Shown: positions 1 to 6,047 of the stretch, in pieces
How positions within the stretch are numbered: position 1 is the stretch's first letter
Layout of the letters: each line of letters starts with the position of its first letter
Source of the DNA: Holophagales bacterium
Lineage (GTDB): Bacteria; Acidobacteriota; Holophagae; Holophagales; Holophagaceae
Direction of reading: 5' to 3'
Length of the DNA stretch: 12,744 nucleotides
NCBI GenBank assembly: GCA_031281385.1
Contig: JAITFL010000080.1
Location: forward strand, 1-12,744
The notes under the pieces: generated by a model
Seen by the model: the letters and a program-made list of their open reading frames with translations, nothing else
The model's database searches: none
What the model was told of the DNA's origin: nothing
Position numbers and translations under genes: made by a program

Positions 1-1857
1 CCCCCAGTTCCTCCCACTCCGCCACGCCGCCCCAGCATAGACTTGCCGTCCGAGGCGTACCCTGTCATCAACGGCACTTGGGAGGGGACCGCTGGCGCGC
101 CCTACGATTGGAAAATCAAGTTGGACGTCTTCGCCAAAAACGGCATCCAGAAGGTGCTGCTCACCTGCATAGCCCCAAAGTTCCAGACCTTCTATTTCCC
201 CATCGAATATGGCTTTGAAGGCGACGCGGCACTGCTGTGGTGGAACGACGAGGACAACAGGGGGAAGATGGAGCTGCGGGTTGGCTGGGGCAACCAAGCC
301 GTGGGTACGTTTGAGCAAAAGAAGTGGGGCGGGCCCGTGCCAATCACGCTGTCCAAAACATCTAATGCACCAAAGGACGGCGCCGCGCCCTACCACGGCA
401 CATGGGAGGGCAAGCTGGGCGACCCATTCCAATGGAACGTGAGGTTCGACTGCTTTGCGGCAAACGGCTTGCAAAAAGTGTTGGCATCCATGACAGGAAA
501 TGGACCTGACGCCCTTTTTTTTGAAGTCAACCACATGCTAGAGGGCGACGGCCTATTGATATGGTTCAACGACAATGCCAACAGGGCAAAGATCAAGCTC
601 CAATTCAATGAGGCAGGCCAGTTGGCGGGCGAATACAGCCAAGTTGGGCTGGGAAAGGCGCATGGCGTTTTTTCAAAGACTGCGGCAGAGCCGACAGACG
701 GCGCAACGCCCTACCACGGCACCTGGGAAGGCAAGATGGGCGAACCATTTGGATGGGACATGAGGTTCGACTGCTTTGCGGCAGGGGGCTTTGAAAAAGT
801 GCTGGTCTCTATGACAGGGAATGGCCTGAACGACCGCTTTTTTGAAGTCAACCACACCCTAGAGAGCGATGGCCTGCTGCTGTTGTGGAACAACGAAGCA
901 GATAGGGTGACAGTGAAGCTTAGGTTCAACGAGGCCGGGCAGTTGGCGGGCGAATACAGCCACCGTAGGCTTGGAAAGGCGCAATGCGTCCTTTCAAGGA
1001 CAGCGGCAGAGCCGACAGATGGGAGAAAACCCGCAGGGTCGCAAAAGGGCTTTGCCCAAATTCTGAAAGATAATGGCGACTTTGCAAAACCGGTGAAATT
1101 TGAGTACGACTTTTCCCACCCCAAGCTGGCCGAGCTTAGGAATAAATATGGCTTTGCAAACATAGCCGGCAAAGGGGACACGCAGAGCAAGGCGATAAAT
1201 TTGCTCAACTGGCTGTGCAAGGGCACCCACCACAAAGGCTATGACAGCCACATAGAGTTGAACGCCTTGGCCCTATTGGAATACACATACAACAAGGGGC
1301 CAGAGAATGGCGTCAACTGCGCCAACCTTTCGGTGATCCTCAGCGAGATGTGCCTGTCTGTGGGCATACAGGCCCGCGCACTGTGGCTTTATCCGGCAAA
1401 CCCCAACGACTACGACAACCACGTCGTAGTTATGGTCTGGGCGCCCGAGCGAAGCAAGTGGATCATGCTTGACCCTTCATTCAACGTCTATTTCAGCGAC
1501 GAGGCGGGCAACGTGCTATCGCCGATGGAGGCAAGGGAAGGCATAGCCCAAGGCAGTAAGTTGAAGCTGAACCAAGATTCCAAAATAAGCTATGTGGAGT
1601 ACGTCAACTACATGGCCAAGGACATGTTCTACTTCAACAGCGCCACAAAGACCAGCTTCGGCACCTTTTCGGGCCAGTATGAACGTGCGTACCTGTGTCC
1701 AGGCAGCTTCGACCTGAAGGACTGGAGAATAAAGAACATGCGCTTCCGAAACACTCTCGGCAGCCCCCTCTCCGATGAAGAACTGGCAAAGCGCGAAGAG
1801 CGGATTATGCAGCAGAAATACCTGTTCGCTACGATGGAGAGTTTTTTTGGGAAGTGA
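1..1857 (+). CDS. Transglutaminase-like protein with three tandem N-terminal repeats (5' end cut by the window)
   Basis: The frame is open from base 1 to the TGA at 1855-1857 with no upstream stop, so the first in-frame start codon (TTG at 43) is unlikely to be the real start. The first codons read as a proline-rich linker (PPVPPTPPRRPS), which suggests more protein upstream. Three repeats of about 107-111 residues, each opening with a GTWEG motif, occupy bases 58-1032. A transglutaminase-like (papain-fold) domain follows, with the nucleophile in NCANLSVILSEMC (Cys codon 1318-1320), His in DYDNHVVVMVW (1420-1422) and Asp in WIMLDPSF (1471-1473). These match the family's Cys-His-Asp triad. Such domains act as proteases, amidases or crosslinkers, and the substrate cannot be read here. 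Any signal peptide would lie outside the window, so location is unknown. The gene downstream is convergent and unrelated. Confidence 0.85.
   Translation, partial: PPVPPTPPRRPSIDLPSEAYPVINGTWEGTAGAPYDWKIKLDVFAKNGIQKVLLTCIAPKFQTFYFPIEYGFEGDAALLWWNDEDNRGKMELRVGWGNQAVGTFEQKKWGGPVPITLSKTSNAPKDGAAPYHGTWEGKLGDPFQWNVRFDCFAANGLQKVLASMTGNGPDALFFEVNHMLEGDGLLIWFNDNANRAKIKLQFNEAGQLAGEYSQVGLGKAHGVFSKTAAEPTDGATPYHGTWEGKMGEPFGWDMRFDCFAAGGFEKVLVSMTGNGLNDRFFEVNHTLESDGLLLLWNNEADRVTVKLRFNEAGQLAGEYSHRRLGKAQCVLSRTAAEPTDGRKPAGSQKGFAQILKDNGDFAKPVKFEYDFSHPKLAELRNKYGFANIAGKGDTQSKAINLLNWLCKGTHHKGYDSHIELNALALLEYTYNKGPENGVNCANLSVILSEMCLSVGIQARALWLYPANPNDYDNHVVVMVWAPERSKWIMLDPSFNVYFSDEAGNVLSPMEAREGIAQGSKLKLNQDSKISYVEYVNYMAKDMFYFNSATKTSFGTFSGQYERAYLCPGSFDLKDWRIKNMRFRNTLGSPLSDEELAKREERIMQQKYLFATMESFFGK
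58..1032 (+). repeat. Three tandem in-frame coding repeats (about 107 residues each)
   Basis: The repeats span bases 58-390, 391-711 and 712-1032. The second and third are each exactly 107 codons and share about 73 of 107 residues by hand alignment, with long runs of matching DNA, so that duplication is fairly recent. The first is much more diverged but keeps GTWEG, an aromatic/acidic core and the final linker pattern (KDGAAP versus TDGATP and TDGRKP). Short alternating hydrophobic stretches suggest a beta-rich domain. I do not recognise the family; GxWxG motifs also occur in lipocalin- and avidin-like barrels, but that is only a resemblance. Confidence 0.85.
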
Positions 1858-1885
1858 TGTCAGGTACAAGTTACAAGAGGTCGCT

Positions 1886-2184
1886 GCGCGGCGAGGTTAT
1901 TCGCCTTGCGGTACCACCGGGCAGGATTGGTACCCGGTAGAGGTATTTGCTCGGCGCATTTCTTACGTACTCGGGAAGATGGCCCCGGTGACTTGACTCG
2001 TTCAATGCCGGTTCATGGAGCCCGCCCGGATGCTGAACTGGGGTGCGCTCGGTTGCATCGCTCGCAGGCTCGCGCTGCCCCGCTTGCACCCCAGACCCCG
2101 GGTACTCGCCTCGCCTACTGCCCTATGTAGGAACTGATACATGGACATGGCTTCGATGGGCGAGTGGATGCTCGGAGTGGCTCC
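1886..2184 (+). repeat. Intergenic structured repeat, copy A
   Basis: This fills most of the 357-base gap between two convergent genes. It shares three blocks with copy B at 3922-4164: a left hairpin (1887-1905, 18 of 19 bases matching), a 72-base core (2089-2160, about 65 of 72) and a right end finishing in GTGGCTCC (2177-2184). Visible structure includes GGCGA/TCGCC around a 6-base loop (1894-1905), a perfect 9-bp inverted repeat CTGGGGTGC/GCACCCCAG (2038-2046 with 2086-2094), CCTAC/GTAGG around TGCCCTAT (2114-2118 with 2127-2131) and GGAG/CTCC near 2175-2184. No ORF here has coding character. The strand is given as + because G-T pairs are retained better on that strand. Confidence 0.75.
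2114..2131 (+). other. Conserved hairpin in copy A
   Basis: The stem CCTAC/GTAGG encloses the 8-base loop TGCCCTAT. The equivalent hairpin in copy B (4091-4108) has the identical loop, but a stem with a T-A pair replaced by A-T and a C-G pair replaced by T-G. The loop is unchanged while the stem bases change in a pair-preserving way. Confidence 0.6.
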
Positions 2185-2214
2185 GATGGGTGCGATAGGG
2201 GAATTCAAGCCGCC

Positions 2215-3771
2215 TCATTTTTGCCTCAGCCTGCTCTTCCGCCTTCCGTAAACCGCATATATCACTAGCCCCGCGACCAGCCAGAGGGCAAAGCGTTTCC
2301 AAGTCAGGCCGGGGAGCCCCAAGGCGAGCCAGACGCAAGCCAGTATCCCCAAGGGAGCTGACAGCCAGACTAGGGGCATCCTGAATCTGCGCTGGACGTC
2401 GGGCCTTTTCAGCCTAAGAATTACAACGCCTATGCAGACCAGCGAAAAGGCGAACAGCGTGCCTATGTTGGTCAGCTCCACCACTTCGCTGATGTTCAAA
2501 AAGGCGGCGGGGATTGCCACCACTAGGCCAGTCAGCAGCGTCGCGTTTGCCGGGGTGGAGCGCTTTGCGCTGATCCTGCCAAACCAAGGACCCAACAGCC
2601 CGTCTCGACCCATCGCCATGAATATCCTTGGCTGGCCTATCTGAAAGACCAGCAGTGCAGCAGTTGTAGCAATAACCGCCCCCGCGCTTATCACGCCGGC
2701 CAAAACGGTATATCCTTTTTGCTCAAATATGTACGCCAGCGGGTCGGCTATGCCCTCTAGCTGGGTGTACTTCAGCATCCCGGTCACCACCAGCGCTATA
2801 AGGGCATAGATTATGGTGCAGACGGCCAATGACCAGAGTATGCCCCTTGGCAGATCCTTAGCGGGGTCGCGGCATTCTTCCGCCGTGGTGCTGACCGAAT
2901 CGAAGCCTATGAAAGCAAAGAAGATGATCGCGGCACCAGCCTGCACCCCTCTCCAGCCATTTGGGAAAAAGGGCTGGTAATTTTCGCCGCTGACAAACCT
3001 TGCGCCCGCGCCTATGACCAGCAAGAGGATCGCCACCTTGAGGATCACCATCCAGTTGTTTGCGCGGCTGCTCTCTTTTATCCCCCTATAGACTAGGTAC
3101 GTGATCACAATGGTGATGACGACTGCCAGCATGTTGAAGGTCAGCGGAAAGCCAAATAGCGTGGGGGCTTCTTTCAGGGCTTCCCAATTGGCGAACAATT
3201 CGCACTCTGGCCCCCCAGCCTTTGCCGATGCCAGCGCGGAAAGTTTTTCAGCCAATGGCGCAGTTCCCTCTCTATACATCAGCGCGGTGCGAGGATCCAT
3301 AGCCAGCCAGCCGGGGATGTTGACGTGGAAAACGTTTGACAGAAAGCTCCTTGCGTAGTCCCCCCAAGAGATGGCCACAGCCACGTTGCTGACGGCATAC
3401 TCCAGCAACAGGTCCCAGCCGATTATCCATGCCGCCAATTCGCCCATTGTGGCGTAGGCGTACGTATAAGCGGAGCCGGAAACTGGTATCATGCTTGACA
3501 TTTCCGCGTACGCCAAGGCCGTGAAGAGACAGGCGAAGGCGACTAGGATGATGCTGGCTACAAGGCCCGGCCCAGCAGCCAAGCGGCCATCCATGATATT
3601 TCCCGCAGCAGCGGTGCCTATTGTTGAAAAAATCCCCGCGCCAATGATGGCTCCAAGGCCAAAGAGAGCCAAGTCAAAGGCCGTCAGGTTGCGCTTCAGC
3701 TTGTGGCCCGGCGCGTCCACGCCGGCCTGGAGCTGCTCGATGGACTTTGTGCGAAATAGCTGCTTGAACAT
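2215..3771 (-). CDS. APC-superfamily amino acid permease (cationic amino acid transporter-like)
   Basis: A 518-residue integral inner-membrane transporter that probably imports amino acids by proton-coupled symport or exchange. The first membrane helix carries the APC signature GLGAIIGAGIF (residues 38-48). SGSAYTYAYATMGE (98-111) and the following WDLLLEYAVSN segment are typical of the CAT/YfnA subgroup. FFAFIGFDSVSTTAEE (284-299) with DPAKDLPRGI is the conserved helix 6-7 region. Around twelve or more hydrophobic segments fit the usual 450-520 residue length. The ATG at 3769-3771 is preceded by a weak AGG about 9 bases upstream and starts directly before the conserved N-terminal region. The gene is monocistronic, convergent with the transglutaminase-like gene and divergent from the DUF58 gene. 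Family assignment is firm; the substrate (Arg/Lys or small neutral amino acids) is not readable. Confidence 0.9.
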   Translation of the reverse strand: MFKQLFRTKSIEQLQAGVDAPGHKLKRNLTAFDLALFGLGAIIGAGIFSTIGTAAAGNIMDGRLAAGPGLVASIILVAFACLFTALAYAEMSSMIPVSGSAYTYAYATMGELAAWIIGWDLLLEYAVSNVAVAISWGDYARSFLSNVFHVNIPGWLAMDPRTALMYREGTAPLAEKLSALASAKAGGPECELFANWEALKEAPTLFGFPLTFNMLAVVITIVITYLVYRGIKESSRANNWMVILKVAILLLVIGAGARFVSGENYQPFFPNGWRGVQAGAAIIFFAFIGFDSVSTTAEECRDPAKDLPRGILWSLAVCTIIYALIALVVTGMLKYTQLEGIADPLAYIFEQKGYTVLAGVISAGAVIATTAALLVFQIGQPRIFMAMGRDGLLGPWFGRISAKRSTPANATLLTGLVVAIPAAFLNISEVVELTNIGTLFAFSLVCIGVVILRLKRPDVQRRFRMPLVWLSAPLGILACVWLALGLPGLTWKRFALWLVAGLVIYAVYGRRKSRLRQK

Positions 3772-3808
3772 TAGGAACCTACTTTATTTGTAAACGTACT
3801 TGCACTGC

Positions 3809-3851
3809 CCGCATCCACAATTGTCAATTGTCCTTCATCCATTGTCAATTT
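3809..3851 (+). repeat. 43-base inverted repeat, left copy (ATTGTCAATTG type)
   Basis: Read on the plus strand it starts CCGCATCCAC and contains two ATTGTCAATT units. The reverse complement of 5416-5458 matches it at 38 of 43 bases without gaps. The two copies therefore face each other across the DUF58 gene, repeat copy B and the structured spacer, about 1.65 kb in all. A third partial unit, CCATTGTCAATTTTGAT, follows copy B at 4163-4179. Confidence 0.8.
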
Positions 3852-3856
3852 GAGAC

Positions 3857-3867
3857 ACTTGCAAAAC
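3857..3867 (+). repeat. Short dispersed repeat ACTTGCAAAAC
   Basis: An 11-base unit immediately right of the left 43-base repeat. The same unit or its complement recurs at 4148-4158, 5160-5170 and 5175-5185, with near copies at 5304-5313 and 5372-5382, all inside the stretch bracketed by the 43-base inverted repeats. Confidence 0.65.
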
Positions 3868-3921
3868 CATCCCAAATTTTTTCCTATTACTGGGTGGCAA
3901 TTCCATCGTGCCTAATGGACA

Positions 3922-4164
3922 CGCGGCGAGGTCATTCGCCGCTTGAACCTCGGGGCTGAAACTTTTCGGCCTTCGGCGTTCAGCACCGGGGCATGGAAAA
4001 ACTTCCGAATGCTAACTGGGGATTCGCTCAGCACGGCCTCGCATGCGAGTCCGCACTTCGCTACTCCCCAGACCCCGGGTACTCGCCTCGCTAACTGCCC
4101 TATGTTGGGGCAGATACATGGACATGGCTTCGATGGACGGGCGGATAGTTTTGCAAGTGGCTCC
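3922..4164 (+). repeat. Intergenic structured repeat, copy B
   Basis: This lies in the 450-base divergent gap between the permease and DUF58 genes, and matches copy A in the left hairpin, the 72-base core (4066-4137) and the right end. In this copy the left hairpin is a perfect 7-bp stem GCGGCGA/TCGCCGC around GGTCAT. GCTGAA/TTCAGC forms a middle stem. The main stem is CTGGGGA/TCCCCAG (4016-4022 with 4065-4071), plus one further pair after a mismatch, with a 38-39-base interior as in copy A. CTCGCATGCGAG inside that interior is a perfect palindrome. CTAAC/GTTGG encloses the conserved TGCCCTAT loop. The rest of the gap holds the ATTGTCAATT units and no gene. Confidence 0.75.
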
Positions 4165-4221
4165 ATTGTCAATTTTGATAATCATGTTGCTCTTGCGGCG
4201 CATTGGCCATATTCTATCGCT

Positions 4222-5199
4222 ATGTACCTGTGGAAAGACTCCCGCCTTAAACTAAGAATCACGCGGCTTGGCGTTCAGTATGTCCTTGTTACCGGCGTGG
4301 TGGGGTTGCTGGGGCTTTTCACCAGCAACAATCTGCTGCATGCGATTTTCGGCATGATGATCGGCCTGCTGCTGGTATCTGGCTGGGCAAGCCGGGCCGC
4401 CATCTTGGGGATAGAACCCGAAAGCGTGGCCACAGGCACTTTTTTTGCCAAAGCCAAGGGCGGGCTTAGGTTGAGGCTCGTGGACAAATGCCCGACAAGG
4501 ACGCGCTGCCTAGAGATTTCGGCGGCGATTCCGGGTTGCCCATCGGATATCGCCTTTTACCAAGGGGGCCGCCGCATGGCAGAGAAACGGGGTAGGGGGG
4601 GCGAGCCGTCCGCAGTGCTTAAAATCTGGCCATCGAAGAGGGGAAGGGCAAAAATCGCCAGCGTTGATTTTTGCACGTCCTATCCATTTGGCTTTTTGGA
4701 AAAAACCGTGTCGTTCCCCTTCGATGCAGAGTTTTTGGTCGCGCCGCACCCGACGGGCTTTGACAGCTCAAATAGGGGCAGGGGGGATTATTCCGAGCCA
4801 AGCCCACTGTCTGGCTTTTCCAGCCCTGATGGGGCCAGACCCTTTGCCATCGGCGACTCGATCAGCAAAATATACTGGAAGCGCACGGCCCAGCGGGGCG
4901 AGCCTTGGTCGAGGAACATGGAGGGCGACCTGCCCAAAGGGCTGGAATTGGAATTAGACTTGGACGCATGGGCACCCGGCGATGATTTTGAACACGAGCT
5001 AGAAAGGCTGTCCGGCGCGATCCTTGAGGCGAGGCTTCTCAAATCCGCCGTGACGCTCCACATTTTCAAGGGCGGCAGATGCACGGACGCAGCTGGAGCC
5101 ATAGCCGCATGGAGGGTACTCTCCCTAGCGGAGGCCAACGGCCAACAATCACCAGAGCCACTTGCAAAACGTCAGTTTTGCAAGTCACCGGAGGTGTAG
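4222..5199 (+). CDS. DUF58 domain-containing protein
   Basis: A 325-residue protein. I chose the ATG at 4222 because the hydrophobic DUF58 N-terminus follows it at once (two membrane segments, about residues 17-56, RLGVQYVLVTGVVGLLGLF then HAIFGMMIGLLLVSGW). The in-frame codons upstream run through intergenic repeat copy B. No clear Shine-Dalgarno is visible. The family hallmark is present at about 210-236: GDSISKIYWKRTAQRG followed by an E.D pair, corresponding to the GDxxRxIxWxxTAR motif. DUF58 proteins usually sit beside a MoxR AAA+ ATPase, often with a membrane transglutaminase of the TgpA type, and are thought to act in envelope or metal-centre maturation. Neither partner is adjacent here. 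The last ~13 codons fall in a palindromic repeat (5160-5185), so the C-terminal tail LAKRQFCKSPEV is probably acquired sequence. The exact function is unknown. Confidence 0.85.
   Translation: MYLWKDSRLKLRITRLGVQYVLVTGVVGLLGLFTSNNLLHAIFGMMIGLLLVSGWASRAAILGIEPESVATGTFFAKAKGGLRLRLVDKCPTRTRCLEISAAIPGCPSDIAFYQGGRRMAEKRGRGGEPSAVLKIWPSKRGRAKIASVDFCTSYPFGFLEKTVSFPFDAEFLVAPHPTGFDSSNRGRGDYSEPSPLSGFSSPDGARPFAIGDSISKIYWKRTAQRGEPWSRNMEGDLPKGLELELDLDAWAPGDDFEHELERLSGAILEARLLKSAVTLHIFKGGRCTDAAGAIAAWRVLSLAEANGQQSPEPLAKRQFCKSPEV
5160..5185 (+). repeat. Perfect palindrome at the 3' end of the DUF58 gene
   Basis: Two head-to-head copies of the short repeat: ACTTGCAAAAC (5160-5170), a 4-base GTCA loop, then GTTTTGCAAGT (5175-5185). 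The stem is 11 bp without mismatch. It lies inside the last codons of the DUF58 frame, 12 bases before the stop codon ends it. It could act as a transcription terminator or mRNA-end hairpin, but no T-run follows, so I call it a repeat. Confidence 0.7.
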
Positions 5200-5205
5200 G
5201 CTGCG

Positions 5206-5286
5206 CCCGACCGGAGCGGCCTCTGGCGTGGAAGCACTATAAACAGGCAAGTTATAAAATCCAGCCAGAGACGGCGGAAGGTCGGG
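5206..5286 (+). other. Nested inverted repeats in the spacer (possible structured RNA)
   Basis: Three co-linear stems can be drawn: CCCGACC (5206-5212) with GGTCGGG (5280-5286), CTCTGGC (5221-5227) with GCCAGAG (5264-5270), and TATAA (5238-5242) with TTATA (5252-5256). All are perfect and properly nested, giving a long hairpin of about 80 bases with internal loops. It lies just after the DUF58 stop codon. There is no coding ORF and no match to an RNA family I recognise. Confidence 0.5.
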
Positions 5287-5375
5287 AGCAGACGTACCGC
5301 CAAGTTTTGCAAGAAGCTCATTGATTGTGCGAGAGACGAAAGAATCGGAGCGGCACCCTGCCGATGAATCTCTTG

Positions 5376-5394
5376 CAAAAACCTGATGTTTTTG
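5376..5394 (+). other. Short hairpin CAAAAAC/GTTTTTG
   Basis: A perfect 7-bp stem around the loop CTGAT, overlapping a near copy of the TTGCAAAA repeat. It is A/T-rich and lacks a following T-run, so a terminator role is not well supported. Confidence 0.4.
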
Positions 5395-5415
5395 AGCAGT
5401 AAGACTCTGATTATC

Positions 5416-5458
5416 GAATTGACAATTGATAATGGACAATTGACAATGGTGGATGCGG
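5416..5458 (-). repeat. 43-base inverted repeat, right copy (ATTGTCAATTG type)
   Basis: On the minus strand this reads CCGCATCCAC followed by ATTGTCAATTG units and matches 3809-3851 at 38 of 43 bases. It contains two TTGACA strings on the plus strand, but these belong to the repeat unit and no matching -10 box lies at the right distance, so I do not call a promoter. Confidence 0.8.
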
Positions 5459-5485
5459 CCTAGAGCCGCGCTGGTTTCCTTTATC

Positions 5486-5577
5486 GCAGTTCAACCTATT
5501 GTAGGTTGAACCGCTATGCAAAGATTTGCCGCTTATTGTCCGTAGGCGGGCTTTGCCCGACGTTAAGCGGACAATAA
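5486..5577 (+). other. Two strong hairpins upstream of the cytidine deaminase gene
   Basis: Hairpin 1: GTTCAACCT (5489-5497) and AGGTTGAAC (5503-5511) around ATTGT, extended by two GC pairs beyond one mismatch. Hairpin 2: TTATTGTCCG (5533-5542) and CGGACAATAA (5568-5577), with an inner CGGGC/GCCCG stem (5547-5551 with 5555-5559) and a TTT loop. The second ends 32 bases before the ATG at 5610. They may be leader-RNA regulatory structures, a terminator of upstream transcription (hairpin 2 ends in ATAAAAG, not a T-run), or palindromic repeats. Confidence 0.5.
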
Positions 5578-5600
5578 AAGTGCAAATTGCTATAACTACT

Positions 5601-5604
5601 GGAG
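5601..5604 (+). promoter_or_regulatory. Ribosome binding site of the cytidine deaminase gene
   Basis: GGAG five bases before the ATG at 5610. It decides the start, since the longer frame beginning at TTG 5526 runs back through hairpin 2. Confidence 0.75.
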
Positions 5605-5609
5605 AACAA

Positions 5610-6047
5610 ATGGCGGACATGGAAACAAACGCCCCTGAGTGGGAACCTTTGCTGGAGGCCGCATGGCACTCTAGGGAGGGAGCGCACGCGCCATATTCTG
5701 GCTTCAAGGTGGGGGCGGCATTGCTGCTTTCCGATGGGTCAATATTCCCAGGCTGCAATGTCGAAAACGCGGCCTATCCACTCTGCGTCTGCGCGGAAAG
5801 GGCCGCCCTTTGCTCCGCCGTCTCCTTGGTCGCCGCTAGGCCCGGGCAAGTGAAGGCCCTGGTCGTAGTGACTGAGGCAAATGAATTGACACCGCCCTGT
5901 GGAGCGTGCCGCCAAGCCTTTGCGGAGTTCTGCGCCGACTTGCCCATCCTTTTGGCAAACAGGGCAGGGCGCAAATTGTTCAACTTGAGTTTTTTGCTGC
6001 CAGAGGCTTTCACTTCCCAAAACCTTGCGCCCAACAGCCCTAGATAA
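5610..6047 (+). CDS. cdd: Cytidine deaminase
   Basis: A 145-residue zinc enzyme that deaminates cytidine and deoxycytidine to uridine and deoxyuridine in cytosolic pyrimidine salvage. The small tetrameric class is indicated by length (usual 130-140) and motifs: APYSGFKVGAAL near the N-terminus (substrate pocket), GCNVENAAYPLCVCAERAAL with the zinc Cys and catalytic Glu in CAE, and PCGACRQ with the other two zinc cysteines. The E. coli-type enzyme is about twice as long and uses HAE. The start is fixed by the GGAG site. The C-terminus after the core (LLPEAFTSQNLAPNSPR) is the usual variable tail. The gene follows a hairpin-rich leader and is 81 bases upstream of the TPR gene on the same strand, so cotranscription is possible. 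Confidence 0.93.
   Translation: MADMETNAPEWEPLLEAAWHSREGAHAPYSGFKVGAALLLSDGSIFPGCNVENAAYPLCVCAERAALCSAVSLVAARPGQVKALVVVTEANELTPPCGACRQAFAEFCADLPILLANRAGRKLFNLSFLLPEAFTSQNLAPNSPR

Follow-up and report, generated by a model that had tools for sequence, protein, structure and literature searches.

What has been duplicated on either side of an amino-acid permease gene in contig JAITFL010000080.1 of a Holophagales bacterium? The two intergenic elements in question, copy A (positions 1887-2184, plus strand) and copy B (3922-4164, plus strand), were described in a first-pass annotation as having stems that covary, and they were proposed to be a candidate structured RNA or a folding repeat family. 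We analyzed the whole stretch of 12,744 nucleotides (hereafter, the window). The results indicate that A and B are probably copies of a lineage-restricted dispersed DNA repeat with internal hairpins, which is non-coding and non-autonomous and resembles a miniature inverted-repeat transposable element (MITE). All results concern this 12.7-kb window rather than the whole genome of its source, and copies beyond it are known only as predicted proteins.

A 312-bp unit with terminal inverted repeats

Copy B is contained in a 312-bp unit at positions 3852-4163, except that the last base of the copy, 4164, is the first base past that unit. The unit is bounded by terminal inverted repeats (TIRs). The left TIR, GAGACACTTGCAAAACCATCC (3852-3872, plus strand), is complementary at 19 of 21 positions to the right TIR (4143-4163; GAGCCACTTGCAAAACTATCC as read on the minus strand). 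A simple base-composition model predicts 0.004 such pairs of 21 nucleotides within 500 nucleotides of each other in the window. Flush with the TIRs are two copies of a 12-bp direct repeat, CATTGTCAATTT, located at 3840-3851 and 4164-4175, which we read as a target-site duplication. When the unit is folded as single-stranded DNA, its z-score is -5.30, and none of 100 shuffled sequences equals it.

The left flank of the unit belongs to a repeat that is also present, in inverted orientation, at 5414-5458 (45 nucleotides, 89% identity). This inverted paralogue (5400-5458, minus strand) passes through the corresponding site without the unit, and so constitutes a paralogous empty site. Without the unit and one of the direct repeats, the flanks, once joined, track the paralogue across the junction into GATAATCA. 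Aligned with the reverse complement of 5360-5480, the joined flanks with one direct repeat score 80 and the left flank alone scores 70; random right flanks scored as well as the joined flanks or better in 109 of 24,122 cases. A longer right flank gives a score of 72 when both direct repeats stay in place, 82 when 12 bp are taken out and the maximum, 86, when 13 bp are taken out. This gain on dropping 12 to 13 bp is what a target-site duplication predicts. The comparison supports the insertion of the unit into a pre-existing intergenic repeat of the same genome.

Sequence shared by copies A and B

The likeness of A and B is itself far beyond chance. The positions and letters of the two elements are as first reported, and the shared core of roughly 90% identity extends to 81 nucleotides (block III; 2089-2169 in copy A and 4066-4146 in copy B, plus strand), of which 72 are identical (E 3e-27). 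The core includes a short hairpin, hairpin 1, at 2114-2131 in A and 4091-4108 in B. Shorter blocks match as well. The 5' block CGCGGCGAGGTYATTCGCC is identical at 18 of 19 positions between the copies (block I, which is CGCGGCGAGGTTATTCGCC in copy A; 1887-1905 against 3922-3940, plus strand), and the segments just before the second hairpin (1990-2037 and 3975-4015) are alike to a degree that none of 1000 shuffled pairs equals. The 5' region minus its first 19 nucleotides shows marginal likeness only, equaled by 38 of 1000 shuffles. The second hairpin, stem 2, occupies 2038-2094 in copy A, with arms at 2038-2046 and 2086-2094, and 4016-4071 in copy B, both on the plus strand. Past the core, the two copies have in common the 9-mer AGTGGCTCC, which is the outer end of the right TIR, at 6 and 9 nucleotides past a shared GGAT.

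A covariance model (R1) built from A and B recovers both copies in the window; its next match has an E-value of 0.42, so it finds no third copy there. The model derives from a two-sequence alignment in which one stem 2 column is misplaced, and its RNAalifold structure differs from that of the first-pass annotation.

Further copies in predicted proteins

To look beyond the window, a protein profile made from the minus-strand frame of both copies was run against a collection of 5.8 billion proteins. Among 31 candidates, two proteins have E-values of at most 1, P0121 and P0122, both encoded on other contigs. Besides the two copies in the window, these represent two more, seen only as predicted proteins. 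Four other reading frames used as queries gave no match among 6 candidates, and the family therefore appears rare in those protein data.

P0121 is a 'hypothetical protein' of 111 amino acids from a 3,667-bp JGI contig (E 4.1e-15). Over the core and the first half of stem 2, its codon positions fit copy A at 85 of 90 and copy B at 77 of 90. The later part includes ASDATERTPV, which is found letter for letter in copy A in another frame, and from SIRAGSM onward it returns to the first frame of A. Because the frames shift, the ungapped score of this later part against A is low (60 of 87, with about 42 expected by chance). A reading of the frames indicates that the DNA of P0121 has about 112 nucleotides beyond those of A at the tip of stem 2, opposite 2066-2070 of copy A. 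The extra nucleotides span residues KTALN to YREV and are perhaps a nested insertion. Judging from these codon fits, P0121 is most likely a translated third copy of the repeat, and the public protein entry is most likely a spurious translation.

P0122 is an HI1420-type antidote protein in which 22 of 24 residues match the stem 2 module of copy B. Its last 20 residues fit stem 2 of B at all 60 codon positions, with a stop assumed behind them. The protein probably represents a hairpin module, or a truncated copy, that was joined to the end of a gene. Repeats of this kind also seed databases with predicted proteins, as in P0121, and probably with gene-end extensions, as in P0122.

The overlap of predicted open reading frames (ORFs) with the copies, together with the absence of a left end in A and the unequal block lengths, might suggest that A and B are what is left of something larger, such as an intron, an insertion sequence or a protein gene, after the loss of its coding part. 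Such an origin is very unlikely. The four minus-strand ORFs over the copies have a best Pfam E-value of 0.14 (those on the plus strand were not scanned separately), P0121 has no match in Pfam, NCBIfam or PADLOC, and the only match of P0122 is to the antidote family to which it belongs. A plus-strand frame that is open through the core of B is stopped in A, and no Rfam intron matches. The decayed protein-coding gene that the first-pass annotation had held up as an alternative is not borne out by these scans.

Paired changes and RNA folding

The two stems that had been taken to suggest selection on folding are both present, and so are the flips from T-A to A-T, the change of a C-G pair to T-G and the T-C mismatch that has no compensating change. 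Hairpin 1 pairs CCTAC with GTAGG in copy A and CTAAC with GTTGG in copy B, around an identical loop, TGCCCTAT. Between the copies, one pair of this stem is changed on both sides and another goes from C-G to T-G; these are the only two changed pairs that can be aligned. When the 81 alignment columns were shuffled, a stem of at least 5 pairs with a loop of at most 12 nucleotides and a double change appeared in 6.6% of 20,000 trials. A stem with at least two changed pairs appeared in 2.0% of 20,000 trials for loops of at most 12, and in 6.7% of 3,000 trials for loops of at most 60. The covariation signal, which is based on two DNA sequences only, is not clearly beyond chance, and so small a number of paired changes does not establish a selected RNA.

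In stem 2 of copy B, positions 1 to 7 and 9 are paired and position 8 is T-C. The interior of this hairpin cannot be aligned between A and B, in that 223 of 1000 shuffles align equally well, and the flips at positions 7 and 9 are therefore not countable as compensatory substitutions. It looks as though the entire hairpin was swapped, and not altered one pair at a time. Stem 2 taken alone folds better than shuffled sequences (z -2.49 in A and -3.65 in B), whereas its interior does not (z +2.00 in A, which is worse than shuffles, and -1.12 in B), so the folding signal lies in the stem ends. The internal hairpins are probably a property of the palindromic DNA. Replacement of a whole hairpin, or correction templated by the hairpin, would keep the stem ends around an interior that can no longer be aligned, and would explain the preserved ends without selection on RNA. 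Transcripts that read through the repeat would carry the hairpins, and no function need be assumed for them. The locus illustrates clearly how palindromic repeats can imitate RNA covariation, with compensated stems although the hairpin interior was apparently replaced.

It is also possible that A and B represent a structured noncoding RNA present in several copies, in which the conserved blocks form a core and the two variable segments make up peripheral helices that differ in length, but we regard this as unlikely. Such an RNA would fit the alternation of conserved blocks with variable segments along both copies, the retention of the stem 2 ends while the interior changes, and the identical hairpin 1 loop with its one true double change. 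Folding of whole copies is partly in its favor, because B surpasses dinucleotide shuffles on both strands (z -2.62 plus, -3.47 minus) and A does so on the minus strand (z -2.00). However, the plus strand of A is no better than shuffles (z -0.02). The earlier preference for the plus strand as the RNA is not upheld, since the minus strand is somewhat better in both copies. Hairpin 1 alone is slightly more stable than shuffles in A (z -1.76; 11 of 200 equal it) and no more stable than shuffles in B (z -0.05; 87 of 200), and the column shuffles above reproduce its joint changes in 2 to 7% of trials. Moreover, hairpin 1 of B loses a pair on the minus strand (C-A there, T-G on the plus strand), and that of P0121, as deduced by hand from degenerate codons, has its mismatch at a different pair, the closing one, which is C-A on the plus strand and T-G on the minus strand. 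B and P0121 thus disagree as to strand, and neither strand pairs fully in all three copies.

The location of copy A, between the ends of convergent genes, also argues against an RNA leader: the next likely plus-strand gene is 2 kb away, and no likely gene is in leader position on either strand, as a riboswitch would require. A simple promoter scan of 1800-5650 lists five sites, none inside either copy. Rfam 15 gives no match in the window at the gathering score and none up to an E-value of 5 for 1850-4230. With Rfam, the promoter scan and strand consistency all negative, a functional RNA gets no independent support. The broader suggestion of a folding repeat family fares better, as there are more copies than A and B (P0121 and, less clearly, P0122) and the 312-bp unit folds strongly.

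A hybrid of these ideas, namely that a small and undescribed mobile element of the Holophagaceae brings along a structured RNA whose hairpins can be exchanged (a swappable stem-loop on a conserved core), is decidedly doubtful. If it were true, transposition would spread RNA modules to gene ends.

Origin of the two copies

If the repeat is mobile DNA, a transposase encoded elsewhere, itself not seen, would act in trans on the inverted repeats. B would be a complete copy, and A an older copy, decayed or truncated, that keeps the right end AGTGGCTCC and has no left TIR.

Several observations weigh against this account. The empty-site test is modest, in that the best random join scores 87 and so exceeds the observed 80. 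In an earlier version of the test, whose draws were not kept off repeats, 40 of 2,000 random flanks equaled or exceeded the observed score. The evidence for insertion comes from one locus, which lies inside a repeat-rich array that contains ATTGTCAATT three times. Copy A lacks a left TIR (the best match in 1700-2300 is 12 of 21) and has no flanking direct repeat longer than 6 nucleotides. No transposase domain was found among the eight ORFs scanned. The z-score of the stem 2 interior in A, given above, implies that a palindromic interior is not general. Beyond the window, P0121, as read by hand, is without AGTGGCTCC at the homologous place, and the search match of P0122 is weak (E 0.22).

Some of these points would be expected if the core were an independent and older repeat (family 1) that was captured, at B, in a separate TTGCAAAAC inverted-repeat element (family 2), with no functional link between the two. 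Copy A contains the core but no left TIR, and P0121 shows no right TIR end. Conversely, palindromes of the TIR type occur without the core. One of them (5155-5190) contains the terminal 16-mer GAGCCACTTGCAAAAC without a mismatch at 5155-5170, together with an 11-bp inverted repeat that is perfect (5160-5170 and 5175-5185), and weaker ends of the same type are found within 5304-5381 (14 of 16 at 5304-5319 on the minus strand and 12 of 16 at 5366-5381 on the plus strand). However, A and B share AGTGGCTCC at a near-equal offset from the core, so that the TIR end and the core seem to be one unit. We consider capture of the core to be unlikely, and we prefer the single MITE-like repeat.

Genomic setting and searches

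Copy A is flanked by the 3' ends of convergent genes, a transglutaminase-like gene (43-1857, plus strand) and the permease gene (2215-3771, minus strand). Copy B is located between divergent genes, the permease gene and a gene at 4222-5199 on the plus strand, whose start is our choice and which has only a weak match to DUF58 (E 0.027, below the Pfam cut-off). The rest of the window contains genes for cytidine deaminase, a TPR protein, MnmE, a Jag-like R3H protein and YidC. Among the best 120 of 7,997 relatives, the MnmE of the window is 95% identical to P0001, encoded on a 37-kb JGI contig, 68% identical to P0012, labeled Holophagaceae bacterium, and 61-62% identical to P0076 and P0092, labeled Holophaga sp. 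By this similarity, the source is placed as an uncultured member of the Acidobacteriota near the Holophagaceae.

The gene at 4222-5199 is bracketed by the 45-nucleotide inverted repeat (89%), which is made of TTGTCAATTG-type units at 3809-3853 and 5414-5458, and the simple promoter scan lists TTGACA/GACAAT in this repeat on both sides. The last codons of the gene cross the perfect 11-bp palindrome with GAGCCACTTGCAAAAC (5155-5199), and the C-terminus of its product (..LAKRQFCKSPEV) looks repeat-derived, like that of P0122. The transglutaminase-like gene contains two in-frame 300-nucleotide repeats (376-675 and 697-996; 78% identical, 321 nucleotides apart) that precede its catalytic domain.

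Searches for known relatives gave little. No tRNA or tmRNA was found. With blastn against phages and plasmids, copy B has no match at an E-value of 1e-5 and copy A none at 0.1, and the region 3800-5620 has no useful match among plasmids. The single match of tblastn, run against plasmids only, lies in a glp gene and has an E-value of 0.3, and a 39-nucleotide TIR query retrieved 6 plasmid records, all with E-values of 2 or worse. Pattern scans of viral contigs found 29, 9, 1 and 5 stretches, whose pieces aligned by blastn are at most 29 nucleotides long and are taken as chance, and four other patterns found none. A scan of a genome collection with a single exact 20-mer, which does not show absence from other genomes, gave three matches, all in Dehalococcoidia. 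These apparently belong to one gene type by sequence, which we take to be enoyl-CoA hydratase; the ORF itself was read at a single match. Among the titles listed in literature searches, none concerns a family of this kind in Holophagaceae.

Comparison with known systems

Integron attC sites are recognized by the consensus boxes R' (GTTRRRY) and R'' (RYYYAAC). Copies A and B resemble attC sites in that they are imperfect palindromes that flank a single gene in the same orientation, but neither box occurs on either strand of 1860-2214 or 3852-4191, and this assignment was rejected.

REP sequences with a GTAG tag were likewise rejected. In REP/RAYT systems the tag stands at one end of a palindrome of 20 to 40 bp, and here it is absent from a shared palindrome end; GTAG occurs twice on the plus strand and once on the minus strand of A and once on the minus strand of B, at no shared place. 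A target-site duplication is not expected of HUH transposases. There is nonetheless a general likeness, because REP/RAYT palindromes and TIRYT-associated TIR repeats are palindromic and extragenic, and Acidobacteriota are known hosts of such systems; the transposases associated with the TIR repeats include a distinct group in Acidobacteria (PMC3733652).

The YPAL/RU-2 elements of Yersinia have internal inverted repeats, are not A+T-rich and are about 168 bp long (PMC2229807). They are likened to the copies by description rather than by sequence, and copy B differs from them in having TIRs.

The closest resemblance is to bacterial MITEs (Correia/NEMIS, RUP, ERIC, QMITE2 and others). These are described as short elements with TIRs and direct repeats, whose transcripts fold strongly and which can be fused to genes (PMC10969869, PMC2229807, PMC3733652); gene fusions of such small mobile repeats are reported in PMC2229807 in particular. 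Like them, copy B is short and intergenic, and Pfam scans of the ORFs over the copies reveal no transposase family of its own. The MITE TIRs are about 15 to 30 bp long, and those of B, at 21 nucleotides, are within this range. B has direct repeats at the insertion, flush with its TIRs, as well as strong folding, and fusion to genes has its possible parallel in P0122. The differences are that the 312-bp unit is just over the 70 to 300 bp range stated in PMC3733652, that the direct repeat is 12 bp, that the TIR and core match nothing found, and that, of the two copies in the window, B has both TIRs and the target-site duplication and A has neither. With these likenesses and differences, A and B likely represent a new family of small mobile DNA in a poorly studied lineage of Acidobacteriota.

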